Assembly (NCBI GenBank): GCA_015654985.1
Contig: JAATFW010000165.1
Location: forward strand, 1 to 32,514
Reading direction: 5' to 3'
Source: Sphingobacteriales bacterium
Lineage (GTDB): Bacteria; Bacteroidota; Bacteroidia; Sphingobacteriales; Sphingobacteriaceae
DNA: 32,514 nucleotides
Shown here: positions 6,661-28,912 of the stretch, piece by piece
How positions within the stretch are numbered: position 1 is the first letter of the stretch
How the letters are laid out: each line of letters opens with the position of its first letter
Position numbers and translations under genes: made by a program
Notes under the pieces: model-generated
Seen by the model: the letters and a program-made list of their open reading frames with translations, nothing else
Databases searched by the model: none
Told to the model about the DNA's origin: nothing

Positions 6661-6662
6661 TC

Positions 6663-8285
6663 TTATTCAATGGTAACATCGGTATCTTGAGTCTCTGTCA
6701 GTCCAACCAGTTTAGCCTGCTGCCGGTCCAGCTTTGCTCCTTTTATTTTAATACCGGCACTCTTTATAATATGGACGGCTGCAGCCTCTCCGGAGGGAGC
6801 ATCGGCTTTTAAATTGCTGATGCTGCTGTTAAATACATCGTCAAGGATAATAGCAGGGCGGGAATCAGGATTTCTGAGACTGAGTTTCAGGTTATTGATT
6901 TCAATGCCCTTTGCATGCCGGATATAAAATCCGCTGGCGGGGTATACCTCGCCGTACATTCTGTTTTCAGGATAAGCAGAAGGGTTTTCCCTCAGAGGCA
7001 TTTTGCCTTCTTCGTACGTGCCTTTCCCCATACTGCTGATGGTAATATTATTAAGTTTAATATTTTCGGCATAATATCCCGGCAATGCAGTAATAGAAGA
7101 AGGCATTTTACTGTGTGATATGGCTGTAATGTTTTCTATCGTCACATTTTTTATGCTCCCTGCAGGCGACTTACCTGAAGAACCCACTGCGTTCCTTCCC
7201 CGGTTACCCAAAACAATAAAAATAGGGGTTTGTACGCCTGTCATCCGGATCCCGGATATTTCAACACTGTCTATACTGGCCCCATCAACGGTCTCAAGTG
7301 CAATGCCGGCCAGTACAGTTACAGGGAGCTCGATAAACTTTAATTGTTTTTGCCAGTGTCTGATATGATCGGCTGATGCGGCGGTAATGACACAATCGGA
7401 TATCTTCACATTTTTGAGACCGCCTATGCCAACGGTTCCGAACTTGATCGCATTACAGTTGGACGCTATTTTGCAGTTTCTGACAATAATATTTTCACAG
7501 ATGTTTTTCCGTTCATGGTTTTTAAAACAGATCCCGTCATCGTCCACATCAATTTCGCAGTCTTCAATGAGCACATTACGGGCATCTATATCCATGCCGT
7601 CCTGGTTATAATTAGAATGATTGTAGACCTTCAGTTTTTTTAGATGAAGATTACTGCAGCCCAGATAATTTTGCATCCAGTAGGCTGAATTAGTCAGAAA
7701 AATACCTTCCACTTTTATTTGCGTGCAATTGATAATTAGTAGTCCGCAGGGACGCTGACGGCTTTCGGCTGATGCTCCGTCATTGCCCAGATCGAATTCA
7801 GGGCTGCCGCCATTGCCATTGATAGTACCGCGCCCGCCTATTGAGATATTTTCGGCGCCTTCGGCGAAAATAAGTGCCCTGCTCATCTGCACTGTTCCCT
7901 TATTGCTGTGTGTAAATATATTCTGATAGTGTACATTGTTAAGCGGATAATCCTTTAAAGAGGGGCTTCCTAACAACACAGCGCCCTTTTCAAGGAATAA
8001 ATTGACATTGCTCTTAAGATAAACAGTGCCCGTCAGAAAAGTACCTTGTGGAAAGATGACCCTGCCGCCGGTTTTACTGCACGCATCAATAGCAGTTTGT
8101 ATAGCTTTGGTATTAAGGAATTTTCCATCCCCTTTTGCGCCAAACCGGAGTATATTATAGTTGTTTCCCTGCGATGATTTTAATTCATGAAAACAGAATG
8201 CTTCCTCCGGCCGGTTCAATAACAGAAAGATGATGATAATAATTGCTGAGAATATGAAATTTCCTGATTTTCTTTTGTATTTCAT
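6663..8285 (-). CDS. GH28-fold (polygalacturonase-like) exported protein
   Basis: The 540-residue product has an N-terminal hydrophobic segment (about 10-24) and a right-handed parallel beta-helix of the pectinase type, beginning YNILRFGAKGDGKFLNTKAIQTAI and going on through many repeated coils. Acidic residues fit the GH28 centre: NQDGMDID with Asp229, and DVDDDGIC with Asp248-250. Two other GH28 hallmarks are changed: where GHG is expected the sequence reads SNCNAIKFGT (275-284), and where RIK is expected it reads GIALETVDG. The paralogue at 11145-13175 has the same changes, so they define a subgroup and are not decay. Expected role is cutting uronic-acid- or rhamnose-linked pectic glycans outside the inner membrane. 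It is packed 2 bp from both neighbours in the operon. Confidence 0.87.
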   Translation of the reverse strand: MKYKRKSGNFIFSAIIIIIFLLLNRPEEAFCFHELKSSQGNNYNILRFGAKGDGKFLNTKAIQTAIDACSKTGGRVIFPQGTFLTGTVYLKSNVNLFLEKGAVLLGSPSLKDYPLNNVHYQNIFTHSNKGTVQMSRALIFAEGAENISIGGRGTINGNGGSPEFDLGNDGASAESRQRPCGLLIINCTQIKVEGIFLTNSAYWMQNYLGCSNLHLKKLKVYNHSNYNQDGMDIDARNVLIEDCEIDVDDDGICFKNHERKNICENIIVRNCKIASNCNAIKFGTVGIGGLKNVKISDCVITAASADHIRHWQKQLKFIELPVTVLAGIALETVDGASIDSVEISGIRMTGVQTPIFIVLGNRGRNAVGSSGKSPAGSIKNVTIENITAISHSKMPSSITALPGYYAENIKLNNITISSMGKGTYEEGKMPLRENPSAYPENRMYGEVYPASGFYIRHAKGIEINNLKLSLRNPDSRPAIILDDVFNSSISNLKADAPSGEAAAVHIIKSAGIKIKGAKLDRQQAKLVGLTETQDTDVTIE

Positions 8286-8287
8286 GA

Positions 8288-10990
8288 TCAGTTAAGCTGT
8301 ATTAATTTTGACTGAATATTTGCATTAAATCCGTCGGTTACCAGTTTTACAGTATTGCCGGGGACATCTTCTGCCGGCATGCGGATGGTAACAGATTTTG
8401 ACTCGCCCGGAAGCAGGTTAAAAAAATTGTCTGAGTAAAAAGCCGGTTTAATAATTTTTCCTTCTGTGGTCTGAAGCTTTAACTGGGTGAAAAAAGATAA
8501 GGCCTCCGAAGTATTGGTTACCGTAACCAGGATTTGTTTATTCTGTACACTGACCGTGGTATTCAGATTTACCCCGGGCAGTTTATTGATATCTTCAAAC
8601 CCCGATACGGCCGGTCCGGTCATCGTCCATGCACCCTTATACTGATCTTTTGATCTCCAGTAAAACGAATCGGAGACCGGCTTACCTGCGGAATCCCTCA
8701 GAGTTAATTTAATAAAATGCACCTGCGATATAGTTTCCGGAAAGGTAAGCTTCAGGGCATCTTTAACCAGTCCGTCTGACGGTATGTCGATTGTCTTTTT
8801 ATTTTCTGAGATCTTTTTAGAGTTGAGATCATAAATTTCGGCAGTCAGGCTGTAATTTTTGAAACTTCTCCTGTAGTCATTATAAACAGAGACCGTGTTT
8901 TTAAGATAGTCAAACTGGGCATGCAGCGGCTGCAGCCCGTTTTGCGAATAGTACAGAGCCGCCGTTGGTTCCAGACTCCAGTCGTACATGCGCCCCCCGG
9001 TTTGCCGTACCGGGCTGTTATGGTACCAGAACAGGAAACCCGAAGCAAAGCGGTCTCCCCAGTTAAATTTATTGTAATTCCACACTTCCCATATCGCCCG
9101 GTAGTTTAAGGCGCCTACGAACTGGGCTTTTTTTGCAAATTCTTCTATAGAACCTGACTTGCCGAACATATCTACTGCCTGACGGTACCTGGTGGTGATC
9201 TGGTGAAATCCGCCGCCGTCCAGATAGTTCCACACGCTGTCGTTAACCGGCCATAAATCTTTCTCCGGCATCATTTCGCGAAGAGATTCTACCGTTGGCA
9301 GGCATGGGGTTCCATATTCCGGATTAAATCCATCTACCCGACTCCCTCTCGCTGATGCAGTGTTTTCGAAATACTGCATCGGGTTTTCATACTTGTAAGG
9401 ACTGCCGTCGTGAACGCCGCAGCATTCCGATTGCTCCTGGTATCCTCTTGTGGGATCCAGTTGCCTGATCAATTCTCCGGTTCCCGGAATTTCGGTAGAT
9501 TCGTTTGATGCAACGTGATATGCCAGAGACGGATGGTTCCTGATCCTTTTTATGGTAGACCTGATATTTTTTAAATAAAGCGCTGTATCCGTGGGCTGGC
9601 GTGTATCTCCGGTCATCCAGTATTCATTCCACAACAGGAAACCCATTTCATCGCACAGATCGAAGAAATAATCCGATTCAGCAATGCCTCCTCCCCAGAA
9701 ACGGATAAAGTTAATGCCCGCCTGCCGGGTATAAGTTAACTCGGCTTTTGTACGCTTGGCCGAATTCCGAAGCATTGCCTCCGGTATCCAGTTCGTGCCC
9801 CTTACAAAAACAGGATATCCGTTCACCAGGAACCTTCTCGAACTGTCGGGGGTATTTTGATCAGAGGTGATCTCACGGATGCCGAAGCGGACCGACAACT
9901 GATGGCTTATTCGTTTATTTTGAACGAAGTAAAGGCTTAAATGGTACAGGTTCTGATTGCCCTTGTTAACAGGCCACCATAGTCTTGGATTTTTGATGAG
10001 TAGCTGTTTAAATTCCTGAGGTGTGAATGTTACCGTTCTGGTTTCCCTGGGATTCAGACTGACTGCCTTTTGAAAGGAGATGTTTCCCTCACGGATCACC
10101 CCTTTTAAAAAGCCGTTTTGCTTGCTGCCTGATGCATTGGTCATTTCTACTGAAATAGTCTGAGCGGATGAAGAAGTGTCGGGCAGGGAAAGTTTAGTCA
10201 TTACAAAAGGATGTTCCAGTACGACATCGTCTGTAGCAAACAATTCTACTTCTCTCCATATCCCTGTATTACGGTCTCTGATGCCATCGGGAAAAGTAAA
10301 GTCCCAGCCTGCACTCATCAGCATGGTGACATTCTCTCCGATAAGGCCGTCTCCTCCGTTGTTATTTTCGCCCGGCGCTCCGTTTCGTCTTTCCTTCTTC
10401 AGTCCGCTTTGACCTGGTACATCTACCGGTATAACATTTATGGCCAGTACATTTCTTTGTTTTCTGTCAACAATGTTCGTGACGTCGAATTTTGCCGAAT
10501 TAAACATTCCGGCCAGGGTACCCAGCTTTTTCCCATTTAACCAGACTTCACTTCTATAGTTTATACCGTGAAGCTTTAACCAGATTCTTTTCTTTGTAAA
10601 ACTTCCTGGCACATTAAAATCTGTTCTATACCAATAGTGATAAAATTCTCTTCCTGCGTCTGCCATATCTGGTATGATCTTATGGCTACGCTTATTTACG
10701 TCTCCAAAATAGGGATCGGGATACACTTTATCAGCCACAAGAGATGTTAAAACTGTGCCGGGCACAACAGCTTTCTTCCACCCATTCGTATGATATTCAG
10801 CAGTGGACAATTCGTCGCCAGAAGCCTTTATTCGGTCAAATCTTTCGAAATACCAGGTAAATTTCCCGTTATGAGTTAAATCGGAGGTTAAGAAAACAGA
10901 TTGTTGAGCACTACTTTTTGATAGCGTCTCTGGTTGTGCGTAACTTTTTAAAGCAGTAACGAACAGAAATAAAAAAAATAGATTCTTCAT
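8288..10990 (-). CDS. Glycoside hydrolase family 2 (mannosidase/glucosaminidase-like)
   Basis: This is a retaining exo-glycosidase of family GH2. The 900-residue product begins MKNLFFLFLFVTALKSYAQ, a clear signal peptide; a TTG 27 bp upstream keeps the frame open but adds a poor N-terminus. The order is a jelly-roll sugar-binding domain (about 40-255), an Ig-like domain (about 265-375), a TIM barrel (about 380-660) and C-terminal Ig-like domains. The acid/base is probably Glu497 in HVASNES and the nucleophile Glu558 in FNPEYGTP. WGGGIAESDYFFDLCDEMGFLLW is the typical barrel strand region. Overall it resembles the beta-mannosidase and exo-beta-glucosaminidase side of GH2, but substrate cannot be set from sequence alone. 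A 154-bp gap separates it from the gene upstream. Confidence 0.9.
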   Translation of the reverse strand: MKNLFFLFLFVTALKSYAQPETLSKSSAQQSVFLTSDLTHNGKFTWYFERFDRIKASGDELSTAEYHTNGWKKAVVPGTVLTSLVADKVYPDPYFGDVNKRSHKIIPDMADAGREFYHYWYRTDFNVPGSFTKKRIWLKLHGINYRSEVWLNGKKLGTLAGMFNSAKFDVTNIVDRKQRNVLAINVIPVDVPGQSGLKKERRNGAPGENNNGGDGLIGENVTMLMSAGWDFTFPDGIRDRNTGIWREVELFATDDVVLEHPFVMTKLSLPDTSSSAQTISVEMTNASGSKQNGFLKGVIREGNISFQKAVSLNPRETRTVTFTPQEFKQLLIKNPRLWWPVNKGNQNLYHLSLYFVQNKRISHQLSVRFGIREITSDQNTPDSSRRFLVNGYPVFVRGTNWIPEAMLRNSAKRTKAELTYTRQAGINFIRFWGGGIAESDYFFDLCDEMGFLLWNEYWMTGDTRQPTDTALYLKNIRSTIKRIRNHPSLAYHVASNESTEIPGTGELIRQLDPTRGYQEQSECCGVHDGSPYKYENPMQYFENTASARGSRVDGFNPEYGTPCLPTVESLREMMPEKDLWPVNDSVWNYLDGGGFHQITTRYRQAVDMFGKSGSIEEFAKKAQFVGALNYRAIWEVWNYNKFNWGDRFASGFLFWYHNSPVRQTGGRMYDWSLEPTAALYYSQNGLQPLHAQFDYLKNTVSVYNDYRRSFKNYSLTAEIYDLNSKKISENKKTIDIPSDGLVKDALKLTFPETISQVHFIKLTLRDSAGKPVSDSFYWRSKDQYKGAWTMTGPAVSGFEDINKLPGVNLNTTVSVQNKQILVTVTNTSEALSFFTQLKLQTTEGKIIKPAFYSDNFFNLLPGESKSVTIRMPAEDVPGNTVKLVTDGFNANIQSKLIQLN

Positions 10991-11112
10991 AATTTGAGCA
11001 TAACAATATTTCCTCAATCTAATCGGATATTAAGGCAAGAAGTCTCTGTATACCCCAAAACGGGTCTTTGGTGAGAGAATAAATGCCCTAATACCTGATG
11101 GTAAAGAACGGA

Positions 11113-11150
11113 TCCTTATTTAAGGAATACCTTAAAATTAAAAATTAAGG
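11113..11150 (-). promoter_or_regulatory. Tandem AT-rich hairpins in the PUL operon
   Basis: Two inverted repeats sit just after the fusion-lipoprotein gene: TCCTTATTTAAGGA at 11113-11126 and CCTTAA/TTAAGG arms at 11130-11150, the latter overlapping the stop codon. They fall in the only sizeable gap of the enzyme operon (10991-11144). They could shape mRNA stability and uneven expression between the upstream SusCD part and the downstream enzymes. There is no T-run after them, so they are not classic terminators. Confidence 0.35.
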
Positions 11151-13175
11151 AGCCTGAACACATCTGACCGAAAACCATCTTGGAGTCTTAGTAGATCCAT
11201 CTTCTACAGCTAAAACACCTTTATTACTGGTGAGTGTAGCCGTTTTCTTACCGTCTGCTTTATCAGCCAAACGCCATACACCCTGTTCTCCCCATAAAGT
11301 CCAGCTTCCCGAATTGATTCCTGCATAGGCGCCACCTGCTGCAGACCGCCAATATTGAGCACCCTCTGAATTAGGGTTAGCATCAATAATGGCTTTAAGA
11401 GCCTGAGCTTCTTCAAAAGTCGGGAGACGCCATCCCGGAGGAACAGCATTTACTTTGTTATCTGCATCATAATAATATCCATTTTCACCCTCGGCCTTGC
11501 CAGAATAAGTGGTTGCAGACGATATACCCTCTCTGGAATTCGTAACCATCCAGCGCAAGTTCCCATAGACCATAGTTTTATAGGTATTTGTACCTACAGT
11601 AAAAGTACCATCGGCGCCTATCGTTCCCGGATCATCCGGGGGAGTGGCTGGATCTTCTTTTCCTTTATCATAAATTTCTCCGTCAACTGTAAGATCTTCA
11701 GTAGAAATCTGCCTGATAAATAAGGCTTCTGTTACAGATTGAGGGGTACTGTTCTTTAAAGAAGCGCCTTTTACGTCATTAAAGTAATAGTATGGTCTTG
11801 CATCGTCATTCTGTTGTGTTATGCTAACGTTCTCAAAAACAATATTTTTAACATGTCTTACATAAAATCCGGATGCCGGAAGCACATTGCCAAACATATT
11901 ATTCTCAGGATATTGATCGTGAACTTCCGGTACGCTCAATCTGGCTTGAGAAGTATTTCCGCCACCTAAAACCGTCATTTTTATATTTCTAAGAATAATG
12001 CTGTCTGCATAGAAATTATCCGTCCCAAGACTTACTCCTGTTATAGAATTGGTTATTAAAGATTCAGATTTAGCAGTCACATCACTGATCGTAATACTTT
12101 TTATCTGGCTAACTCTTCCTGAATAGGTTCTGCTTCTATCGCCCAACCTGATAAAGATTGGCGTCTGTACGTCTTCCATTGTTATTCCGGATATTTTAAC
12201 ATTATCCAAAATTCCGCCATCTACAGACTCTAAGGCTATGCCGGTAAGGCTGGTTATTGATTTGCTGATACCGGCCCAGCGAAGACTGGTCTGCCATTTG
12301 CGAAATCTGTCTTCTGATGCCTTTGTAATTGATATATCTGAAATATCAATATTTCTAAAACCTCCAAATCCTGAAGTACCTAATTTAATTGCATTACAGT
12401 TAGTTTTTACTGTACAATTCTTTACAACTACGTCTTCACAAATTATTGGCAGGTCGCTTTTAATGCATATTGCGTCATCATCCACATCAAAATGGCAGTT
12501 CTCTACCGACACATTTTTACTATCTATATCTATCCCATCATTATTCCAGTTACCATGGCTGTAAACATTGACATTCCTTATACTAACTCCATCACAAAGC
12601 AAATAATGTTGTACCCAAAAAGCGGAGTTTCTTAATGTTACCCCTTCAACAATTACATTTTTACAATTAATCATCATTATAATCTTGGGCCTTCTTTTAG
12701 CATTATTTTCCTGTGGAAAAGCAGGATCATCTCCGCTGCCGTCTATTGTGCCATCGCCGGTAATTTTTACATTTTGTGCATTATCAGCAAAAATCAGCGC
12801 AGGAGTATATGGTGCAACTGACGAGGAAATAGATCCGAAAACATTCGGATAAAATGCATTAAAATAAATATCCATATTTGCTATACCCTTCAGTACGGCA
12901 TCTTTTTCAACATTTAATGTTGTATTGCTTTTAAGAAAGATTGGCCCGGTAATAAATACGCCCTCAGGTATCACTATTGTTCCCGAAGTTCTGGCAGCAT
13001 CATCAATAGCCGCCTGAATGGCCTTGGTATTATCTGTTTTACCATCCGCAACGGCACCATAATCTAAAATATTTACTGTTCTGTTTTCTATGTCTCCTGA
13101 TTTATCAGAATCTTTTTTACATGCAGACATACCTAGCGCCAGCGTAAATAAAAAGAGATAAGCTATCCTTTTCAT
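11145..13175 (-). CDS. GH28-fold lipoprotein with C-terminal FISUMP domain
   Basis: The 676-residue product starts with a lipoprotein signal, LGMSAC, Cys19, followed by KKDSDKSGD; the acidic residues fit surface export in Bacteroidota. The pectinase-type beta-helix spans about 33-505, with NNDGIDID (Asp213), DVDDDAIC (Asp232-234), and the same subgroup changes as its paralogue: NCNAIKLGT in place of GHG and GIALESVDG in place of RIK. A Pro/Asp linker (505-520) leads to a C-terminal domain (521-676) with YYYDADNK, PPGWRLPTFEEAQAL and RWFSVRCV, which is the Fibrobacter succinogenes major paralogous (FISUMP) signature. Its role may be carbohydrate binding or cell-surface display. It lies 40 bp after the DUF5018-like gene, in the part of the operon coding for surface proteins. 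Confidence 0.87.
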   Translation of the reverse strand: MKRIAYLFLFTLALGMSACKKDSDKSGDIENRTVNILDYGAVADGKTDNTKAIQAAIDDAARTSGTIVIPEGVFITGPIFLKSNTTLNVEKDAVLKGIANMDIYFNAFYPNVFGSISSSVAPYTPALIFADNAQNVKITGDGTIDGSGDDPAFPQENNAKRRPKIIMMINCKNVIVEGVTLRNSAFWVQHYLLCDGVSIRNVNVYSHGNWNNDGIDIDSKNVSVENCHFDVDDDAICIKSDLPIICEDVVVKNCTVKTNCNAIKLGTSGFGGFRNIDISDISITKASEDRFRKWQTSLRWAGISKSITSLTGIALESVDGGILDNVKISGITMEDVQTPIFIRLGDRSRTYSGRVSQIKSITISDVTAKSESLITNSITGVSLGTDNFYADSIILRNIKMTVLGGGNTSQARLSVPEVHDQYPENNMFGNVLPASGFYVRHVKNIVFENVSITQQNDDARPYYYFNDVKGASLKNSTPQSVTEALFIRQISTEDLTVDGEIYDKGKEDPATPPDDPGTIGADGTFTVGTNTYKTMVYGNLRWMVTNSREGISSATTYSGKAEGENGYYYDADNKVNAVPPGWRLPTFEEAQALKAIIDANPNSEGAQYWRSAAGGAYAGINSGSWTLWGEQGVWRLADKADGKKTATLTSNKGVLAVEDGSTKTPRWFSVRCVQAP

Positions 13176-13215: not shown

Positions 13216-13587
13216 CTATGGAGCAGGGTATATCAATATCGTCCACTCCCTGGCAATCGTCCCCCCGGGAGAGACTACCTGAATTATTTTTGGTTCCGAA
13301 TAGTCTAAAAAGCCTGTTGCCAAAGCCGGATTAACTGTCGCCCCTGCTGACAGTGTCAGATTAATTTTAAGCTTTTTAATATTTTCACCAGGCTTCAGCC
13401 TGACTATTATTAACCTTGTAGGGACAGATATATCAAACCCCGAGACGGCACTGGCTAAGTTTTCATTGAAACAGGCTATTGACGTTACATCTGCTTTTTC
13501 AAAAGCGGCTGTAACCGTAAAATCATCATCCTTTTGACAAGAAAATAATGCAGTTACAAATAATAAGATAATTAGATAAATTTTCAT
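13216..13587 (-). CDS. Small surface lipoprotein, DUF5018-like
   Basis: The 123-residue product has a signal peptide ending LFSC (Cys17), followed by QKDDDF, which closely fits the QKDDE-type surface export signal known in this phylum. The rest is one beta-rich domain with LKPGENIKKLKINLTLSAGATVNP and a final REWTILIYP. This pattern (LxPGxxIxxLxxxxxLSxGAxxxP, then WTI) resembles DUF5018 domains that occur in PUL-encoded surface glycan-binding proteins. Here the domain stands alone, directly after susD, where SusE/SusF-like or SGBP proteins are usually coded. A glycan-binding or complex-assembly role is inferred from position only. Confidence 0.68.
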   Translation of the reverse strand: MKIYLIILLFVTALFSCQKDDDFTVTAAFEKADVTSIACFNENLASAVSGFDISVPTRLIIVRLKPGENIKKLKINLTLSAGATVNPALATGFLDYSEPKIIQVVSPGGTIAREWTILIYPAP

Positions 13588-13644: not shown

Positions 13645-15357
13645 TCACCATCCCGGATTATTGGGTGCCAGCTTTGGATTTTTGTCCATTGCTGATTGCG
13701 GAACAGGCAGCCAATAATTTTTGGCGGCACTGAACGCCTTATCCACCACTTTAAATATGTTATATGTAGGAACAACTTCACCGCCCGGATCCTTTTTGTA
13801 GATTATATTCATTCCATGAACAGATCCGTTTAAAGTCTCTTCACCGATGTGCCAGCGAATAATGTCGAAATAGCGTTTATTTTCAAAAGCAAGCTCGATT
13901 CGTCTTTCGTGGCGGATCCGTTCGCGCATTTGATCTTTACCTAAGCCATCAGGAAGATCTGGTTGCCCGGCCCTTCTGCGAACGGCGTCCACAGCATCAT
14001 ATACACTTGCATCCGGGCCGGAAACTTCGTTTCTTGCTTCAGCATACGTCAGAAGTATTTCGGCGTAACGAAGAACAATTAAATTATGGCCTCCGCCGAT
14101 TCCCCGGCCTCTGTTATCATATCCACAGATAACCGGTTCATTAGAGTGTTTTCTCATGTAATAGCCGCTGATAGTAGCATTGGTGGCTGTGGTATTCCAA
14201 AGCCCGTTAGGCGCGTTTTGAACAAATGCGTTTGCCGAATTGCTCCAGATATTCGAGCTGGTCATCAGTTGCTGTCCCTTCCACGGAATATCATTGTACA
14301 GAATACTGGCGTAAAACCGTTCATCGCGATTGGCATAAGGGTTAGCAGCTTCTCCGGCGTTATTCCAGTTAAAGGAAGAACCATCTTTCATTTCATAAGC
14401 ATCCACAATTTCCTGTGTCGGAAAGTTCCGGCCCCATCCATAATCATTTCCCGGACCGGGGGCTGGTGGTGCTACCATCGTTTGAAACCCTGTGGTCTTA
14501 TATGGATAGGCATACTGAATGTCGAAAAGTACTTCGCTGTTATTTTCGTATTCTTCGAGGAACAGATTTGCGTATTTTTCCCTTGGGGTAGCCCCGGTTT
14601 CAAACAACGAATATTTTCCCTTTAAATCGCCGTTAATTAAAATATCGGCTGTTTCGGCGGCATTCTCATAATACTGAGCATCGACTACACCTGCACCGAA
14701 CAGGTAAGTTATTGCCTCCATTCCTATGGCAGCCCCCTTTGTTGCCCTTCCGGTCTCGCTGTCGGGAATATCCCTGGGCAGCAAACCGGCAGCCGTTTGA
14801 AATTCGCCGGCGATAAATTCAAGTACCTCTTTCTCAGAGCTCCTTTCATAAAAGACGTCATCAGTGTTACGGTCCAGCGCCTTGGTAATGATAGGTACTT
14901 TGCCATAGTATCTGAAAAGTTCCAGGTAAAACATTCCTCTCAGGAAATGCAGATCGCCCAGGTAACGGTCCCTATCTTCGGACAGCAGCACCGTTGATTC
15001 CCCTACCTTTTCAATACCAAGATTCGTTTTCCTGATTTTAGTATAAGATGCAGACCAGCGATCTATCGGGGCATTTGAAGCTGTAAAGTCAAGAAGGTTC
15101 CAGCTTGCCAGGTTCCTTACCAGATCATCGGTCATGAAATTGTCCAGCATCCATGAAGCATCCAGGTTAGTAAAATCATATAACGGGCCGTTCAGGTTGT
15201 TGTATACATCAGTTACATACTGCATTACGCCGTTGGCTGTTGACCACACCGCCTCATCAGTAATAGAATCACGGGGCGTTATATCCAGAAAGTCGTCCTT
15301 ACAGGCGGTTACTAAAAATAGCAGGATCAATGCCGTATTTTTTAATATCTTATTCAT
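13645..15357 (-). CDS. SusD/RagB family outer-membrane lipoprotein
   Basis: This is the surface lid protein that captures oligosaccharides and closes over the SusC channel. The 570-residue length is normal for the family. The lipoprotein signal ends LVTAC (Cys19), followed by KDDFLDITPRDSITDEAVW, a typical SusD beginning. The N-terminal helical TPR-like part includes FLRGMFYLELFRYYGKVPIITKAL (near 137-160), and the C-terminal part has ILLTYAEARNEV, RRRAGQPDLP, RHERRIELAFENKRYFDIIRW and a final NPGW, all standard family signatures. It lies 11 bp after susC, as expected for a coupled pair. The nearest relatives would be pectin or hemicellulose SusDs, which cannot be told apart by eye. Confidence 0.95.
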   Translation of the reverse strand: MNKILKNTALILLFLVTACKDDFLDITPRDSITDEAVWSTANGVMQYVTDVYNNLNGPLYDFTNLDASWMLDNFMTDDLVRNLASWNLLDFTASNAPIDRWSASYTKIRKTNLGIEKVGESTVLLSEDRDRYLGDLHFLRGMFYLELFRYYGKVPIITKALDRNTDDVFYERSSEKEVLEFIAGEFQTAAGLLPRDIPDSETGRATKGAAIGMEAITYLFGAGVVDAQYYENAAETADILINGDLKGKYSLFETGATPREKYANLFLEEYENNSEVLFDIQYAYPYKTTGFQTMVAPPAPGPGNDYGWGRNFPTQEIVDAYEMKDGSSFNWNNAGEAANPYANRDERFYASILYNDIPWKGQQLMTSSNIWSNSANAFVQNAPNGLWNTTATNATISGYYMRKHSNEPVICGYDNRGRGIGGGHNLIVLRYAEILLTYAEARNEVSGPDASVYDAVDAVRRRAGQPDLPDGLGKDQMRERIRHERRIELAFENKRYFDIIRWHIGEETLNGSVHGMNIIYKKDPGGEVVPTYNIFKVVDKAFSAAKNYWLPVPQSAMDKNPKLAPNNPGW

Positions 15358-15368
15358 ATTATTGATTT

Positions 15369-18300
15369 TTAAAAGGTTATGTTTACTCCAAGAGTGCTGA
15401 CAAACTGTTGCGGATAGGAATTATATGTCAGATTTTCACTATCAAAATCATCAGGCATTTTAGAGAAGATGTTCCATACGTTATAGAAATTTAGATATAC
15501 CCGAGCATCGTTGATAAAAAGTTTTTTTGTCAAACCTGGCTTAATCCGGTATCCCAGTTCGATGGATTTCAATTTTATATAGGATGAATTAATCATCCAG
15601 TAATCCGAAACTTCATAATTGGGCGTACGCTTGGTAGCCGACAGCCGTGGAAATCTGGCGTTTGGATCAGGATTATCAACTGTCCATGAACCAGCCTGGG
15701 AAACCAGCGGTTTGCCATTCTCAAAAGGATAACGGACGCCGCGGTCAGCGCTTCCCAGGTAATAATCAGAATTACCTGTGCCCTGAATCATGGCACCGAG
15801 ATCAAAACCTTTGTAGTTAAGGGACAGATTGTATCCCCACATAATTTCAGGTGTTGCATTACGTCCGATCACCACCTGGTCTTCCGCATCTATTTTCCCG
15901 TCTCCGTTAATATCGACATACTTAATGTCGCCGGGCAGCACAGACGAATTTTGGTAAGCCCAGTCAGCAATGTCTTCCTCATCTTTAAACAAACCGGCCG
16001 TTTTATAGCCCCATGTTAAATTGCCGGGCCTTCCGGTTCTCCTTTTTCGGGGAACGTTTTTCGTGCCAGCCGCTTCACGGATCTCTATTTGCTTGTTCCT
16101 GGTAAAACCAAAGACCAGGTTATTCCGCATGCTCAGGTTTCCGGTAATTTTTGTACGGTTGGTTAAAGTAAGATCAATGCCCCAGCGTGATTCTTTTCCC
16201 GCATTCTCATCCGAAAGGCCGATTCCATATTCGGCAGGAACAACTGCATTAGGAGCCAGAATTTTATCATTTCGTTTGTCGCGATAAATATCGAACTCAA
16301 GCCCAAGTAATCCCCTCCACATATTCAGGTCTAACCCCAGGTTCGCTTTCCAGACTGTTTCCCAGGTCAGAGCAGTATTGGGTTCCTGTCCTTCATATAC
16401 GCCCTGGTATTGCACCGGGCTGGCAGTCCCATTACCAAAAATATAGCTGTTGGTAACCAGGTACTTGGAAAGATAGGCAAATTCCTGGCCCACAGGATTG
16501 CCTGATTTACCATAAGACGCCCGTAATTTCAGATCATCAAGAAATTTAAAACGTCCTTTCAAAAAGCCTTCCTCTGAAACACGCCACCCTACAGATGCAG
16601 ACGGGAACAGGGCGGTTCTGCGTCCGGGTGCATACCGGTAAGAGGCATCATAACGTCCTGCAACTTCCAGCAGGTACTTTTGATTATAATTGTAATTGAT
16701 CCTGGCCACAACGCCTTGCTGGGCATATTCACTGGAATACCCGCCGTTACTCTGGTATTCTTTATTTGAACTGCCCATATTGAGTTCCGGAATATCAAAG
16801 TCATATTGTGTGCGGCCGGCCGACAATTCAGATTTATCGCCCCACCTGCGTTCATAGACGGCCAGTGCCTGCAGGCTGTGTTTCCCGAATTGATTTTGAT
16901 AATTGAGGTATCCCTGGAAAGTATAGTTTGTCCAGAACCGGTCGCCTTCCTCTAATGTTGGTTTCGAAGTTTCCCACCCGTTATGTTCCACGTATTCGCT
17001 CTCATTGTTTAGCTGATAGGATATATAGGGTTCAGACCATTGCTTCCACTTGTATAATTGCTTGTCGTAAGCGAAATTGGCTTTAACCGACAGGCCTTTA
17101 AGAAAAGGTAATTCCTGGTTCATCGTTAAACTGATATTCTGGAATTCATTTCGCTGAATGTTGCTGCCGCTATGTAACTGAGCATAAACACTCCCTCCCA
17201 GCGTAGGTGAAAAGGCTGGCAGTCCGTTACTGTAAACATCGGGTTCGGTGGCGGGCAGACGGTAAAGATCGAGCATCAGGTCGGCCGAACCAATACCCTG
17301 AAATCTTCTTTGATCATTAATAAGACTGAGATCAACTGAAAAAGTGGTTAATGGAGTGGGTTTTATATCGACATTTGAGCGGATGCTATATCGTTTATAG
17401 CCATAAGTATCACCCATCATATTTCCCTGATCAAGATATCCCAGGGAGACAAAAGCCCTTGTCCGCTCATTACCTCCCGAAGCGCTGAGGTTGTGTTGCT
17501 GTGAGTTAGAGGAATTGAGATAATTACCCACCCAGTCAGTGTTGGGATATTGATCAGTGCCTGTTCTATAGAGATCCATAATATCTTCAGATACTACCTG
17601 GTCGGGTTTCCCGTCCATGATCAGGGCTGTATTGCGCAGAGCCATACTTGAATAGGAATCCATGAATTTTGGAGTATTCATCGGCTTCTGCCATCCGTAC
17701 TCGCCGTTATAAGTAAATGAAACTTTTCCCTCACTCCCTCTCTTGGTGGTAATAAGCATTACGCCGTTAGCTCCTTTCAGACCGTAAGGTGCTACTGCGG
17801 AAGCATCCTTCAATATCGAGACTGAAGCAATATCGGCTAGGTTAACTTTATCCCACGGCCTTTCCACTCCATCTACAAGTACCAGCGGAGCGTTTCCTCT
17901 GAGTAAGACAGATGCGTTGTCCAGGCCGGGTTCGCCCGATGTTTGTCTGGTAATGATCCCGGAGACTTTTCCGCCTAAGGTATTAGAAACGTTTCCAACG
18001 GGACCGATATCAAGATCGCTGCCGGAAACCGTGCTTATCGCGGCTGTTAAGCTGCTTCTCTTTTGCGTGCCGTAGCCAACAACCACTACTTCGTTCAACT
18101 GGCTTTCGTTTTCATGCAGAACGGCATTGATTGTGTTTTGGGATGTTACTTTGATTTCCAGAGGCCGGAATCCGATAAATGAGATGACAAGAGTAGCATT
18201 TTGCGGCGCCGTTAATTTAAACCGGCCTTCACCGTCGGTCGTAACTCCCCTTCCTGAAGCGTTTTTAACAGTTACCGAAGCTCCGGGCAGCGAAACGCCC

Positions 18301-18740
18301 GAAGAGTCTTTTACTGTTCCGGTAACCACTATATCCTGAGGAGGGGCTGTTACTGTTAAACTATTGATGTGCTCCGCGGAAGTAATGCTGACAGTACCGG
18401 CAATGAGTTTAAATCTAAGATTTTGCTCCTCCGTTAACAGTTGGAGTACTTCCGCAATTCCTGCATTTTTAATTTGTATAGTTACCGGTCTCGTATTACG
18501 GATCAATTCATCATTATACAGAAACCTGTAATGGGTCTGCCTCCCGATTTCTTCAAAGGCCTGCTCAAGAGTAGCATCTTTGAGTGAAAGGTTAACCTTT
18601 TGCGCTAATCCTTTGGCTTGTACCCCAACGATCAATGACAGCATCAGAAGGAATGTAATTTTCATGGTCAGCATGATTTTGCAAAAAAAAGGACAACAAA
18701 CAGAGTCATCCGGCTTTTTGCCAAATGGAAAGGAATTCAT
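15369..18740 (-). CDS. SusC/RagA TonB-dependent receptor with signalling domain
   Basis: This is the outer-membrane channel importing glycan fragments with TonB energy. Of 1123 residues, the signal region is about 1-46 (hydrophobic core at MKITFLLMLSLIVGVQA). An STN (secretin/TonB short N-terminal) signalling domain spans about 48-120 (LSLKDATLEQAFEEIGRQT), then a carboxypeptidase-regulatory-like beta-sandwich (about 136-200), a TonB-box-like NEVVVVGYGTQ (216-226), the plug, and the beta-barrel ending SYPQQFVSTLGVNITF. The STN domain is the part that contacts FecR anti-sigma factors, and a matching FecR/ECF pair lies directly upstream. Methionines at 23 and 26 are other possible starts; the first gives an N-terminus typical of this family. 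The start codon overlaps the -7 box of a predicted antisense promoter. Confidence 0.95.
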   Translation of the reverse strand: MNSFPFGKKPDDSVCCPFFCKIMLTMKITFLLMLSLIVGVQAKGLAQKVNLSLKDATLEQAFEEIGRQTHYRFLYNDELIRNTRPVTIQIKNAGIAEVLQLLTEEQNLRFKLIAGTVSITSAEHINSLTVTAPPQDIVVTGTVKDSSGVSLPGASVTVKNASGRGVTTDGEGRFKLTAPQNATLVISFIGFRPLEIKVTSQNTINAVLHENESQLNEVVVVGYGTQKRSSLTAAISTVSGSDLDIGPVGNVSNTLGGKVSGIITRQTSGEPGLDNASVLLRGNAPLVLVDGVERPWDKVNLADIASVSILKDASAVAPYGLKGANGVMLITTKRGSEGKVSFTYNGEYGWQKPMNTPKFMDSYSSMALRNTALIMDGKPDQVVSEDIMDLYRTGTDQYPNTDWVGNYLNSSNSQQHNLSASGGNERTRAFVSLGYLDQGNMMGDTYGYKRYSIRSNVDIKPTPLTTFSVDLSLINDQRRFQGIGSADLMLDLYRLPATEPDVYSNGLPAFSPTLGGSVYAQLHSGSNIQRNEFQNISLTMNQELPFLKGLSVKANFAYDKQLYKWKQWSEPYISYQLNNESEYVEHNGWETSKPTLEEGDRFWTNYTFQGYLNYQNQFGKHSLQALAVYERRWGDKSELSAGRTQYDFDIPELNMGSSNKEYQSNGGYSSEYAQQGVVARINYNYNQKYLLEVAGRYDASYRYAPGRRTALFPSASVGWRVSEEGFLKGRFKFLDDLKLRASYGKSGNPVGQEFAYLSKYLVTNSYIFGNGTASPVQYQGVYEGQEPNTALTWETVWKANLGLDLNMWRGLLGLEFDIYRDKRNDKILAPNAVVPAEYGIGLSDENAGKESRWGIDLTLTNRTKITGNLSMRNNLVFGFTRNKQIEIREAAGTKNVPRKRRTGRPGNLTWGYKTAGLFKDEEDIADWAYQNSSVLPGDIKYVDINGDGKIDAEDQVVIGRNATPEIMWGYNLSLNYKGFDLGAMIQGTGNSDYYLGSADRGVRYPFENGKPLVSQAGSWTVDNPDPNARFPRLSATKRTPNYEVSDYWMINSSYIKLKSIELGYRIKPGLTKKLFINDARVYLNFYNVWNIFSKMPDDFDSENLTYNSYPQQFVSTLGVNITF

Positions 18741-18747
18741 ACATTTG
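18717..18747 (+). promoter_or_regulatory. Antisense promoter over the susC start codon
   Basis: TTTG at 18717-18720 and TACATTTG at 18740-18747 are separated by exactly 19 bp. This matches the Bacteroidota housekeeping promoter consensus (TTTG, about 19-21 bp, TAnnTTTG) at every defined base. It faces away from susC, on the opposite strand, and its -7 box starts at the first base of the susC start codon. No protein gene follows it on the + strand for several kilobases. Confidence 0.6.
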
Positions 18748-18752
18748 AGTGG

Positions 18753-18836
18753 TTAAGTGTTACTAAATGAATTTCTTCGAAAAAATGGATATGTAGCCTT
18801 AGCTTTACGGGGGTGGTGCAAACACTCCCGTTTTTT
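18753..18836 (+). ncRNA. Predicted cis-antisense small RNA to the susC leader
   Basis: A transcript from the promoter at 18717-18747 would start near 18753 and end at the hairpin/T-run at 18807-18836, giving about 85 nt. It would be fully complementary to the susC 5' leader between fecR and susC. Antisense RNAs in just this position (DonS-type) are known to repress PULs in Bacteroides fragilis. Start and end are predictions from motifs; no expression evidence can be seen in sequence. Confidence 0.5.
18807..18836 (+). terminator. Intrinsic terminator on the strand opposite susC
   Basis: A 9-bp stem (ACGGGGGTG with CACTCCCGT, one G-U pair) encloses a 7-nt loop and is followed by a run of T (six in a row, 831-836, the first paired). 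It is directional: the opposite strand would have an A-C mismatch and no T-run, so it ends + strand transcripts, although all genes around it are on the - strand. Confidence 0.7.
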
Positions 18837-18898
18837 AATAGCGATTATCCCGTTGGAAAGTAATAATTTGTCATAGAGTTTAATTTTAGGTTATACAT

Positions 18899-20065
18899 TC
18901 ATGGTTTTTCAGGAACATTAAAAGATACGCTTACCTTATGCTGGCCAATTTCGAAATGGGCTTTACTAACAAATTGCAGCATTTCTAACACTTCAGATAA
19001 ATTTACGTTCCTGCTAATGCTTCCACTGTAACGTTTATTGGGAATTTTGCCTTCATATTCAATTGTTAGGTCATACCAACGAGCCAATTGCTGCATGATA
19101 TCTGTAATCCTGTCGCTTCTAAAGTAAAAGTCGCCTTTTTTCCAGGCTATTGCCTTGGCGATATCAGCTTGTCCAAGCAGAATGCCGTTCTCTGAGACAA
19201 CAGCTTGCTGACCCGGATTTAATATCTGTGTTTCTTTGTTTGAAATGACTTTAACCGCGCCTTCCAATAAAGTAGTTGAAGTAGCAGAAGTATAGGCATT
19301 TACATTAAAATGAGTGCCTAAAACTTCAATTTCGGCGCCATTAATTTCAACCCTGAATGGTTTCGAGGCATCTTTGGACACTTCAAAGTAGGCTTCACCC
19401 TGCAAGTACACTTTCCTTTCCTTGCCGGCAAATTGAACAGGGAATTTTAATTGAGACAATGCATTTATCCAAACCCTGGTGCCATCGGGAAGAGTGATCT
19501 GATAGGTACCGGCTTTGGGAACCAATAATGTGTTGAAAATAATTTTTTCAGACCCGGGTACTTTGTTATCATAAGAAACCCCGCCGCTTTTTCCGGTTAT
19601 TTCTGTCCCATCCTGCTCTTTCAGATGATTAACGGCCTCATTCAGAGTTATCCTTCGCCCATCGGATAACAGGAGTTCCGCCTTATTGCCACCCGGTAAC
19701 ACATCGTTCCGGGATTTTTCGGCGTTCTTTACAACTCTATACGACTTTTGGGGCGCCTTCCACAACAGCCAGCCCATTATCAGCAGAACAATAGCTGCAG
19801 CATAGCTGCTGTAGCGAATCAGCCGTTTTATTACAACTCCTTTTCGCCGTTCCCTTGCCCTGCTCCATGCAGCGTCAACATCAAGACGGTCAATAAATTC
19901 AATTTCCTTTTGTATCGGCTTTGCATCTCTGAACGATTCCAGTAACTCTCTGTTCGACTCTTTTTCGCAGAGCCATTGCTGCAATATTTTTTCCTCTTCC
20001 GACGTGAGCTCATTCCGGAGATATTTTGTAATAATTGGGGCAATATTGAACGAATTAGGTCTCAT
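18899..20065 (-). CDS. FecR-family anti-sigma factor
   Basis: This inner-membrane protein would hold the partner ECF sigma factor in check until SusC signals substrate binding. The 388-residue product has a cytoplasmic N-terminal helical sigma-binding part (about 8-75; YLRNELTSEEEKILQQWL), one membrane span (about 85-103), a periplasmic FecR domain (about 180-275; LPDGTRVWINALSQLKFP, VYLQGEAYFEVSKD, VLGTHFNVNAY) and a C-terminal DUF4974/STN-like domain (about 312-382; FRSDRITDIMQQLARWYDL). This is the complete standard layout. It lies 59 bp after the sigma gene and 158 bp before susC. Confidence 0.95.
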   Translation of the reverse strand: MRPNSFNIAPIITKYLRNELTSEEEKILQQWLCEKESNRELLESFRDAKPIQKEIEFIDRLDVDAAWSRARERRKGVVIKRLIRYSSYAAAIVLLIMGWLLWKAPQKSYRVVKNAEKSRNDVLPGGNKAELLLSDGRRITLNEAVNHLKEQDGTEITGKSGGVSYDNKVPGSEKIIFNTLLVPKAGTYQITLPDGTRVWINALSQLKFPVQFAGKERKVYLQGEAYFEVSKDASKPFRVEINGAEIEVLGTHFNVNAYTSATSTTLLEGAVKVISNKETQILNPGQQAVVSENGILLGQADIAKAIAWKKGDFYFRSDRITDIMQQLARWYDLTIEYEGKIPNKRYSGSISRNVNLSEVLEMLQFVSKAHFEIGQHKVSVSFNVPEKP

Positions 20066-20124: not shown

Positions 20125-20688
20125 TTATCTGCCGGCAGTCAGTAGTAAAAGGAGTGCAAACAGTTCAGGATTAAGTTTAGCCCGGAAGATTTTCAGGCCC
20201 CGTTGCTTCTGGGTTTTAACTGTGTTAATACTAATGCCCAGTTGTTTTGCAATTTTCGGATTCGGAAGGCCCTCAAGATAGCCCATCCGGAATATCTGAC
20301 GGCAGCCATCAGGAAGCAATTCCATAATCTTATGGATCTCGCTGAGAACTTCGGAGCGAATCATAGAGTCGAGAGCTTTTGCATCTTCAGAAAGATCTTC
20401 GTCAAAGCTTTCCATGTACCTGGCTTTTATCTTTTCGTGCCGTATGGTGTTATAGCATAAATTTCGTACAGAAGTATACAGAAAATTTTTTATAGCCACC
20501 GGATTGGTGGAAACATCATTTTTGTGTTTCCAGAAGGCAAAAAAGGCATCCTGTACAATATCTTCGCAATGCTCATGGTCATTGAGCAATTGCCAGGCAA
20601 AATGGCATAGCCCTGGATAATATTTTCTGAAGATCTTCTCGTCAGATAGATTTTCCCATTCCTTATCCAAAGCCGTGTTTTCTGTCAT
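20125..20688 (-). CDS. ECF RNA polymerase sigma factor (PUL regulator)
   Basis: This sigma-70 family factor directs RNA polymerase to the PUL promoter when freed by the FecR protein. The 187-residue product has region 2 at about 22-88 (YYPGLCHFAWQLL, CEDIVQDAFFAFW, IKNFLYTSVRNLCYN) and region 4 at about 115-170 with the helix-turn-helix GLPNPKIAKQLGISINTVKTQKQRGL-like segment (140-165). Only the two core domains are present, as in all ECF factors, and the sequence is of the large Bacteroides expansion family. The C-terminal tail ALLLLLTAGR is hydrophobic, as often in this group. It is the first gene of the locus; I see no clear -7/-33 promoter in front of it. Confidence 0.95.
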   Translation of the reverse strand: MTENTALDKEWENLSDEKIFRKYYPGLCHFAWQLLNDHEHCEDIVQDAFFAFWKHKNDVSTNPVAIKNFLYTSVRNLCYNTIRHEKIKARYMESFDEDLSEDAKALDSMIRSEVLSEIHKIMELLPDGCRQIFRMGYLEGLPNPKIAKQLGISINTVKTQKQRGLKIFRAKLNPELFALLLLLTAGR

Positions 20689-20891: not shown

Positions 20892-21476
20892 CTAAAGACC
20901 TGTACCTTCGTATATTTCTTTTAGTGATAACTGAATTCCAACGGTTTGAATAGTTAACAGGGCTTCAGGAGATTTGTATTCCTCTAACTCCCAGTTTCCA
21001 TTTAAATTAACTCTGAATGCTTCCACATTAACCGACTCTGAATCGATAAGGATATATTCTTTCAGCTCAGGGATATCGCGGTATAATTTAAACTTTACAC
21101 CCCTGTCGTAACTTTTGGTAGAAGGTGATAGTATCTCTACCAGCGCAACCGGCCCGGTAACAGGTTCATTATCTTCTTCACCGGTAATTTCTTTGCATAT
21201 AACAGAAATATCAGGATAGGTAAATAAAGAATTTTGCGGGATGTGAATCCTCAGATCGCTCCCGTAAGGCTGGCACTGCTTCCCTTTCAACCGGTATGCC
21301 AGCTCGCCGTAAACGTTCCTGAAGATAACATTATGCCTCCTTCCGGCACCTGCCATAGCAAATACTTCGCCATTATAATATTCATGCTTTTCTGCCGAAG
21401 TATTCTCTGAATCAAGATATTCCTCAACGGTCATCTTTCTTTTATTATACGCAACCGCTGGTTCGTGAAGTTCCAT
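20892..21476 (-). CDS. Uma2-family (PD-(D/E)XK nuclease-fold) protein
   Basis: The 194-residue product belongs to the Uma2/DUF820 family of nuclease-fold proteins, common in cyanobacteria and Bacteroidota, with no settled role. Core motifs are present: the [10 protein letters not shown] beginning, [13 protein letters not shown] (33-45), YPDISVIC with Asp89, [22 protein letters not shown] with Glu114 and Lys128 or Lys130, and YILIDSE. The putative catalytic Asp, Glu and Lys are intact. The start at 21476 ([20 protein letters not shown]) fits the family; the frame is open 87 bp further but gives a Phe/Tyr/Cys-rich, unlikely extension. It sits between the SYLF gene and the sigma factor on the same strand, with a 203-bp gap before the PUL, so it is probably not part of it. 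Confidence 0.88.
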
Positions 21477-21612
21477 GATGATGAAAGTAATATATAAACT
21501 TAAAGAAAATTTATATCTAATTCTGCAAAAGCAATATATGAAACAATTTCTCCGGACCTCCAACCTGACCTGTATCTGATATCCGGCTCCCGGTCATTCA
21601 TCACTGTTACGC

Positions 21613-27607: not shown

Positions 27608-27635
27608 GATATCCTTAGGATTTAAGGACTTGTTT

Positions 27636-28895
27636 ATGAAAAAGTTAGCCTTTTTATTATTTATTGTATCAACACTTCCCAGGCATGCCTTTTCGCAAAG
27701 GCCCGATTCGACCAACTCTTTTAAACGTTTTCGTCTGGGAAGCTACGGCGAAACGCTGTTTCAGCACATGGATTATGGCCCCGATCGTTATTCCGACCCC
27801 AAAGGCGCCCCTTCCGACAACCGGTCTGTTATCGGAATTCCCCGGATGAATTTATCGTTCGATTATAATTTCACCCCTAAAATCACCCTTACAACGGAGA
27901 TTGAATTCGAACATGGCGGTACCGGTGCAGCCATGGAACTCGAATACGAAGAAGCTGGAGAATACGAAGCTGAAATTGAAAAAGGCGGCGAGGTAGCCCT
28001 GGAGCAGATGTTTTTAACCAGAAAGTTCTCCGACGCCTTTCAGCTCAGGATCGGACATATGGTTGTTCCGGTAGGCCAGACCAATAACCGCCATGTACCG
28101 ATCTTATTTTTCGGAACGGTCCGTCCCGAGGGAGAAAACACCCTTATTCCCTTAACATGGCATGAAACAGGAATTTCGGTACTTGGATATCTTCCAAAAT
28201 GGTATTATGAATTTCAATTGGTCAGCGGACTGGATCCCAACGGTTTTTCATCGCCTTACTGGATCAAACGGGGCAGGCAGGGTGCATTCGAAAATGTAAA
28301 TATGACTAATCCGGCCTGGGTAGGAAGAATAGAGAATACATCCTTAAAGCATCTTCGGTTAGGTATTTCCGGCTATTACGGCAACACCGGAAAAAATGCT
28401 ACCAAACCGGAAAAAATGAAGAATATTAAAGGGACTGTCTCTATTGATTCGGCAGAAGCGGAATATAACGACCGGAAGCTCGTTGTAAGGGCAAACATTC
28501 TTAGCGGAAATCTTGACGACTCTTACAACATCACATCCCGTAACAAAACCATCTCCTCCGCTACTCAATACCTGAGATCGCCGGTAGCCAAAAGAGCTCT
28601 GACCTGGGCTGTAGAATCCGGGTTTAATGTATTCTCATTCTTCCATACAAAAGAGAAATTATTCCCCTTTGCCAGGTACGAATATTACAACAGCATGGAA
28701 AGCACTGAAAAAGGAATACTGGCCGACGAACGCTATAAAAGAAATGTGCTGACCCTGGGAATGAACTATTGCTTTTTACCCAATGCCATCCTTAAAATGG
28801 ATTACTCCATGCGTGAAATCGGCGGCGGAAAATATAACAACGAAAACACATTTGCATTGGCCCTGGTGTATACCGGATGGCTGATAAGATTATAA
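27636..28895 (+). CDS. Porin-like outer-membrane beta-barrel protein
   Basis: The 419-residue product has a signal peptide (MKKLAFLLFIVSTLPRHAFS) and alternating beta-strand pattern to a terminal aromatic strand (FALALVYTGWLIRL), as in phosphate-selective-porin-like (OprO/OprP) barrels. Segments such as FRLGSYGETLFQHMDYG, MNLSFDYNFTPKITLTTEIEFEHGG, LEQMFLTRKFSDAFQLRIGHMVVPVGQTN and WHETGISVLGY are typical of barrels in this family. A very acidic loop (EYEEAGEYEAEIEKGGEVALE, near 105-125) could bind cations. A TTG 6 bp upstream is in frame, but the ATG starts the signal peptide. It is the first gene of an operon with imelysin and di-heme proteins, suggesting a channel for iron or heme compounds. 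Confidence 0.8.
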   Translation: MKKLAFLLFIVSTLPRHAFSQRPDSTNSFKRFRLGSYGETLFQHMDYGPDRYSDPKGAPSDNRSVIGIPRMNLSFDYNFTPKITLTTEIEFEHGGTGAAMELEYEEAGEYEAEIEKGGEVALEQMFLTRKFSDAFQLRIGHMVVPVGQTNNRHVPILFFGTVRPEGENTLIPLTWHETGISVLGYLPKWYYEFQLVSGLDPNGFSSPYWIKRGRQGAFENVNMTNPAWVGRIENTSLKHLRLGISGYYGNTGKNATKPEKMKNIKGTVSIDSAEAEYNDRKLVVRANILSGNLDDSYNITSRNKTISSATQYLRSPVAKRALTWAVESGFNVFSFFHTKEKLFPFARYEYYNSMESTEKGILADERYKRNVLTLGMNYCFLPNAILKMDYSMREIGGGKYNNENTFALALVYTGWLIRL

Positions 28896-28912
28896 CATTA
28901 AATATAAAAAAA

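Follow-up and report, generated by a model that had tools for sequence, protein, structure and literature searches.

A predicted antisense RNA opposite the susC leader of a PUL in a Sphingobacteriaceae-like genome, and the recurrence of its layout at FecR-linked susC genes of Bacteroidota

Does the short gap between fecR and susC in a PUL encode, on the strand facing all the genes of the locus, an RNA directed against susC? The question is raised by a stretch of 32,514 nucleotides from a Sphingobacteriales bacterium (hereafter the window), and PUL-associated cis-antisense RNAs are already known from Bacteroides (PMC7366714, PMC11697453, PMC10994844, PMC9723704). We put at roughly 0.7 the probability that the plus strand of this gap encodes a short cis-antisense RNA acting on susC by the mechanism proposed below. 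Support at the sequence level comes from a promoter box, a terminator, the recurrence of both and the selection for folding of the antisense strand. The features of the locus are the following.

4702-13175, minus strand: remaining genes of the PUL, namely an esterase (SASA), two GH28 enzymes and a GH2-type enzyme (domain matches)
13645-15357, minus strand: susD (domain match)
15369-18740, minus strand: susC, with STN, carboxypeptidase-like and Plug domains (domain matches)
18717-18720, plus strand: TTTG within susC codons, a candidate for the -33 box of the antisense promoter
18721-18739, plus strand: 19-bp spacer between TTTG and the -7 box
18740-18738, minus strand: ATG start codon of susC (ORF start)
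18740-18747, plus strand: TACATTTG, antisense promoter -7 box (TAnnTTTG) that overlaps the start codon of susC
18741-18898, minus strand: fecR-susC gap, the stretch that the leader of the susC mRNA would cover and the target of the antisense RNA
18752-18836, plus strand: predicted antisense RNA, about 85 nt in length, whose complement is the susC leader between -12 and -97 (from the position of the -7 box and the terminator)
18807-18836, plus strand: intrinsic terminator with a 9-bp stem, a 7-nt loop GUGCAAA and a T-run
18899-20065, minus strand: fecR anti-sigma gene (domain match)
20125-20688, minus strand: ECF sigma factor gene (domain match)

The plus strand, on which the RNA is predicted, opposes the ECF sigma factor, fecR, susC, susD and enzyme genes, all of which lie on the minus strand, and 158 bp separate fecR (last base 18899) from the susC ATG. 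We infer the substrate of this PUL to be pectin-like. Among five named genomes, the DnaX protein of the window genome was nearest to Sphingobacteriaceae, with identities of 63% to Pedobacter (839 bits), 63% to Sphingobacterium (805 bits), 61% to Mucilaginibacter (798 bits), 47% to Chitinophaga (572 bits) and, over a shorter stretch, 57% to Niabella (526 bits), the family placement of Sphingobacterium and Niabella being general background.

The promoter described in the original prediction, a TTTG, 19 bp and a -7 box at the susC start codon on the plus strand, was found in full where it had been placed, and its -7 box, TACATTTG, shares its first position with the start codon. Because such a box is located at -12 to -5 relative to the transcription start (PMC9723704), the predicted RNA would begin at 18752 instead of the 18753 first proposed and would measure about 85 nt. 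The pattern TTTG-N18-21-TAnnTTTG was obtained in 0.95% of 2000 dinucleotide shuffles of 18711-18898 and occurs eight times, window copy included, in 489,782 strand-bases of loci from the window's own genome, which overlap in part. The strong plus-strand terminator that had been announced is also present: the hairpin at 18807-18831 comprises nine pairs, one of them G.U, and a 7-nt loop, and is followed by T from 18832 to 18836, a plus-strand terminator of -12 kcal/mol or better being found in only 0.4% of 2000 dinucleotide shuffles of 18711-18898. Its folding energy is -15.1 kcal/mol on the plus strand and -9.7 kcal/mol on the minus strand, where a mismatch replaces the G-U pair, confirming that this pair exists on the plus strand only. 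On the minus strand, 18711-18898 contains no terminator reaching -12 kcal/mol, and a looser scan returned two weaker minus-strand ones within the first susC codons. No Rfam family reached its gathering score in the window or in 20 loci, the one sub-threshold match (E 0.16) lying at the gap edge on the minus strand.

The recurrence of these elements was examined in the window's own genome, where all 41 FecR_C matches at E 1e-6 were taken and a following ORF was found in 41/41. In this first count, the 41 loci displayed 21 antisense terminators, no sense-direction terminator and 22 TAnnTTTG boxes over the start codon, versus 2, 1 and 2, respectively, at 36 susC genes without FecR, and 2.4%, 0.7% and 2.2% in shuffles. 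The controls were 36 of 115 Plug matches, without FecR upstream and with enough DNA. Two of these SusC genes without a FecR_C match, one with an antisense terminator (L023) and one with the box (L024), have a layout similar to that of the FecR kind, of which they may be orphan members.

The count was extended to the family with 121 fecR-susC gaps of 20-400 nt from 11 genomes (own, five of the genus and five of the family); 15 of 158 gaps fell outside 20-400 nt and were left out, as were three loci without a downstream ORF (L122, L167 and L203). The same-family loci were 90 of 229 FecR matches, of which 30 were taken by best E-value and 60 hand-picked down the list. An antisense hairpin with a T-run was found in 90 of the 121 gaps versus 6/363 shuffles, and a sense-direction one in 10 versus 1/363. 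TAnnTTTG was present at the susC ATG in 83 gaps (offset 0 in 39, offset 4 in 44), versus 0/363 shuffles at these offsets, and all other positions from -60 to +18 yielded nine boxes; the same scan of own-genome susC genes without FecR gave an antisense terminator in 2/36 and a box in 2/36. The antisense -7 box (TAnnTTT[GA]) occurred together with the terminator in 75 gaps. When a single gap was kept per similarity cluster (68 gaps), 51 antisense terminators, six sense-direction ones and 45 boxes were counted, one cluster gathering 49 gaps owing to the lenient alignment of A/T-rich DNA. The antisense terminator was undetected in 31 of the 121 gaps and the exact box absent from 38; three of the 90 terminator matches sit at the chosen ATG, likewise 3/41 in the named-genome set described below, perhaps reflecting a wrongly picked susC start.

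Among 377 further ORFs of at least 250 aa, the box was found at the start of 18, 17 of which were taken as SusC judging from their length, place and N-terminus, and 12 of the 18 also carry an antisense terminator. The ATG falls in either of two registers of the box (CAAATGTA or CAAANNTATG), an argument for conservation of the box itself and not of the protein start or the translation context. The -33 box was not found as a family feature at spacings of 12-27, TTG at 18-20 nt from the box being seen in 11/39 gaps of one register and 1/44 of the other. The two-box consensus promoter of the original prediction has both boxes in the window, but its -33 TTTG lacks conservation in the family. The check on relatives, where absence of both boxes and hairpin was to count against the antisense RNA, came out in favor of that RNA, the -7 box and the hairpin being conserved. 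In one locus of the same genus (L149), the loop is identical to that of the window, GUGCAAA, with an A-U in place of the window's G.U; in the nearest homologue (L032/L202), whose SusC is 57% identical, the box and a 12-bp hairpin are kept and the other DNA is unalike.

Wobble pairs were used to determine the strand on which the hairpin is selected, with a scan that treats G.T and A.C alike. In 62 family hairpins, 52 wobbles are G.U on the antisense strand and two would be G.U on the sense strand, and in a second set, of 33 hairpins, the counts were 34 antisense and one sense. The sense-direction scan, under the same rules, returned 11 hairpins with wobble counts of 0 and 10, and terminators elsewhere had 20 versus 19 (35 hairpins) and 60 versus 46 (113 hairpins), the latter control being masked only for 800 bases at each SusC start, such that antisense terminators of neighboring genes may remain in it. 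Because the wobbles are G.U 52 times in the antisense RNA and twice in the sense strand, the hairpin is selected in the antisense RNA. The greater stability of the antisense hairpin in 78/90 cases was set aside, being biased by the choice of hairpins on the antisense strand, and the symmetric G.U/A.C count serves as the strand test for this reason.

The loops of these hairpins are also constrained. A loop of 6-8 nt was found in 92 of 106 unique antisense hairpins, versus 14/35 and 51/113 terminators elsewhere, and 57 of these 92 loops start with UU on either strand, as compared with 1/14 and 10/51 in the other terminators and with 7.7 in permutations (sd 2.6, maximum 18 in 3000), which were rerun with the constraint of the stem definition. 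The commonest of the 33 UU-start loops of 6 nt are, on the UU strand, UUAGCG (7), UUGCAG (4) and UUAGAG (3). YUNR, the stricter U-turn motif, is present in 57/92 loops versus 29.8 permuted, with an enrichment in set D (42/62, permuted 20.5, sd 3.6) that is less pronounced in the replication set E (15/30, permuted 9.3, sd 2.5). In published cases of loop-to-loop antisense pairing, a YUNR U-turn lies in the recognition loop of either partner (PMC6562991, PMC4485353). The sense loop of the window, UUUGCAC, contains YUNR as UUUG, and the terminator loop would double as a candidate recognition loop. Loops starting with UU are what U-turn recognition loops would lead one to expect, and we read these constrained loops as a putative kissing loop; a protein site is also conceivable. 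That no loop falls in both loop classes follows necessarily from how stems are defined, and this mutual exclusion was not used. A supposed resemblance to the target loops of plasmids (UUGGCG) was dropped, UUGGCG being absent from the papers that a literature search listed.

The same layout recurs at many SusC genes in several Bacteroidota orders. The named-genome count considered 84 loci, of which 64 were usable, with 30 of 46 FecR matches taken for Bacteroides and 30 of 152 for five other named genomes; the 64 loci, 12 of them single loci of further genomes, harbor 41 antisense terminators, one sense terminator and 27 boxes. Bacteroides oleiciplenus and B. xylanisolvens together display the antisense terminator in 12 of 24 usable gaps and the box in 11, and the antisense terminator was found in Mucilaginibacter dorajii (5/5), Niabella drilacis (6/6), Chitinophaga filiformis (4/5), Pedobacter terrae (4/6) and a Sphingobacterium (2/6), and in 5/6, 6/11, 1/2 and 0/3 loci of four genomes outside the family. 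In a collection scan of 78 named SusC loci (2/80 being skipped), the 21 with FecR upstream carry 14 antisense terminators, 11 boxes and one sense terminator, versus four of each among the 57 without FecR. Positives include Flavivirga, Neptunitalea, Mariniphaga, Parabacteroides and Croceivirga, and neither element was seen at five of the 21 FecR-linked loci (L261, L274, L278, L311 and L313). The antisense box and terminator accompany susC genes linked to FecR, and most susC genes without FecR lack them. They do occur at a few SusC genes where no FecR was detected. The meeting of an ECF/FecR switch and an antisense RNA at one locus, first seen as a peculiarity of the window, is a real co-occurrence, yet it is the rule (terminator at 14/21 loci with FecR versus 4/57 without). 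A search of the open-access literature returned no report of this anatomy in these other orders.

Can these observations be explained otherwise? Single elements are common, with 26 sigma-70-like sites in 10 kb versus 21.7 in shuffles and 15 terminator-like sites versus 9.4, and promoter and terminator could be a chance match at the window locus alone; given shuffle rates of 0.4% for the terminator and 0.95% for the promoter, and the recurrence of both elements in the family, we grant this a very low probability. The start codons of Bacteroidota favor A-rich surroundings and the stretch following the ATG is A/T-rich, in line with CAAATGTA / CAAANNTATG being a translation-initiation context instead of an antisense -7 box, but this is very unlikely, as TAnnTTTG is kept whichever of the two registers the ATG occupies (39 and 44 gaps), and as the box is rare at other genes, with a single non-SusC case among the 18 found in 377 ORFs, and present in only 2/36 SusC genes without FecR. 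It would be just as surprising if the hairpin were an element of the susC mRNA 5' leader, involved in stability or attenuation, with the T-run a chance A-rich tract and no antisense RNA made: the hairpin does form in the sense strand too, more weakly (-9.7 kcal/mol), but the wobbles are G.U in the antisense strand by 52:2 and 34:1, the T-tract is on the antisense side in 90 gaps versus 10, and an antisense -7 box accompanies the terminator in 75/121 gaps.

A rather unlikely, though more serious, explanation accepts the antisense unit as real and assigns the RNA little effect, transcription itself acting through the collision of antisense initiation with the ECF-driven sense polymerase while the terminator shields fecR. 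The promoter is indeed convergent and overlaps the gene start, and an antisense terminator lies ahead of fecR in 90/121 gaps; such collision nevertheless leaves the constrained UU loops of 6-8 nt unpredicted (57/92 versus 10/51 in other terminators).

An RNA acting on susC, our preferred reading, is best compared with DonS, one of a family of antisense RNAs of 78-128 nt (PMC7366714) and whose mechanism is stated as unknown (PMC11697453). According to published accounts, antisense RNAs accompany 15 PULs in B. fragilis, and ten, later 32, PUL antisense RNAs were listed in B. thetaiotaomicron, some being seen by Northern blot. The original paper on DonS and the Bacteroides PUL antisense RNAs is reportedly that of Cao et al. 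(2016). PUL repression by an antisense RNA is described as demonstrated for one, in B. fragilis, and correlations between PULs and antisense RNAs are both negative and positive; repression may not be general because some B. thetaiotaomicron pairs correlate positively. In F. johnsoniae, the -7 motif alone is stated to have been found, as in the family examined here, and a flavobacterial paper listed 287 antisense transcripts and named PULs as a case to study.

The window RNA shares with the DonS kind its location opposite the 5' region of a PUL susC, a housekeeping-type promoter and an intrinsic terminator as judged from the DNA, and a predicted length of about 85 nt, inside the 78-128 nt range (PMC7366714); two Bacteroides genomes moreover have the same anatomy in their fecR-susC gaps. 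It differs by its host, which belongs to another family (Sphingobacteriaceae being nearest by DnaX), by its pectin-like PUL, by being predicted from DNA alone and by a -33 box that is absent in most relatives of the locus. The comparison with the DonS kind draws on published descriptions of layout and size. The predicted family RNAs, with a start put 6 nt past the box, have a median length of 93 nt (range 74-134, n=79), and it is from the fit of predicted lengths to the known RNAs that the window locus is filed with the DonS kind, of which its RNA is likely a member. The DonS-type antisense RNA against the susC leader put forward in the original prediction is well supported by the conservation of box and hairpin and by the strand asymmetry of the wobbles. 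The U-turn loop pairs of hok/Sok and of RNAII/RNAIII of pIP501 (PMC6562991, PMC4485353) offer a further comparison, the window case differing in that it concerns chromosomal nutrient-uptake genes and in that its candidate loop sits on the terminator hairpin itself.

From the sequence, we infer that the RNA would be produced and the PUL repressed, the antisense RNA probably holding susC down. A housekeeping-sigma promoter, its -7 box overlapping the susC start codon, would drive an RNA of about 18752-18836 up to the intrinsic terminator, and this RNA would pair with the leader of susC, starting near -12 and extending upstream. The first contact would involve the loop of the antisense terminator and the complementary loop of the susC mRNA, a U-turn in one or the other favoring the contact, and the resulting duplex would block ribosome entry or expose the susC mRNA to cleavage. 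Always made at a low level, the antisense RNA would set a threshold for ECF-driven sense transcription to exceed, while sense polymerase would for its part traverse the antisense promoter. This threshold would prevent leaky expression from turning on the SusC-FecR-sigma feedback. Regarding the sense ECF promoter, no positional motif except an A-run was found upstream of the hairpin in the fecR-susC gaps, and dyads above shuffles, where placeable, lie within fecR codons and give no sense promoter. The hairpin in the susC mRNA stays putative because no sense promoter was found.

A broader scheme, to which we give somewhat less than even odds, is that of an ancient antisense layer that, throughout Bacteroidota, forms part of the wiring of SusC genes under ECF/FecR control: the -7 box would be built into the susC start codon, an N-terminal extension of SusC would make room for the promoter, the terminator hairpin would double as a U-turn kissing loop, and together with FecR the whole would form a bistable switch in which the housekeeping-sigma antisense RNA and the ECF-sigma mRNA are mutually exclusive.

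The anatomy predicts the start and end of PUL antisense RNAs from DNA alone, extends this prediction to orders for which our open-access literature search returned no such reports, and ties PUL antisense RNAs to one type of regulator, ECF/FecR with STN-SusC. The loop represents a testable candidate for the first contact, and a threshold against leaky positive feedback a testable logic.

Several minor observations were made alongside. AGGAGG, present in 48/121 stretches, was rejected as a signal: in 27 of the 48 it stands at a fixed distance of 24 nt ahead of the fecR stop, as part of the fecR coding sequence, where it corresponds to codons of a conserved FecR tail (L061-L241). TTAACC occurs in 42/108 fecR-susC gaps, some copies being 16-25 nt upstream of the ATG, and is perhaps a translation signal. 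FecR-linked SusC proteins (window 18665-18740, L061-L241) have an N-terminal extension ahead of the signal peptide, the hydrophobic core starting at a median of aa 21 (n=95) where the box is present and aa 18 (n=48) where it is absent, compared with aa 11 (n=36) in SusC without FecR, and the DNA of the antisense promoter is the coding stretch of this extension. Elsewhere in the window, the minus strand encodes a 123-aa ORF without a Pfam match between susD and a GH28 gene (13216-13587) and, directly upstream of the ECF sigma factor gene, a Uma2-family putative nuclease (20892-21563), while a weak porin-like match, imelysin and di-haem oxidoreductase genes lie in a row on the plus strand (27630-31461).
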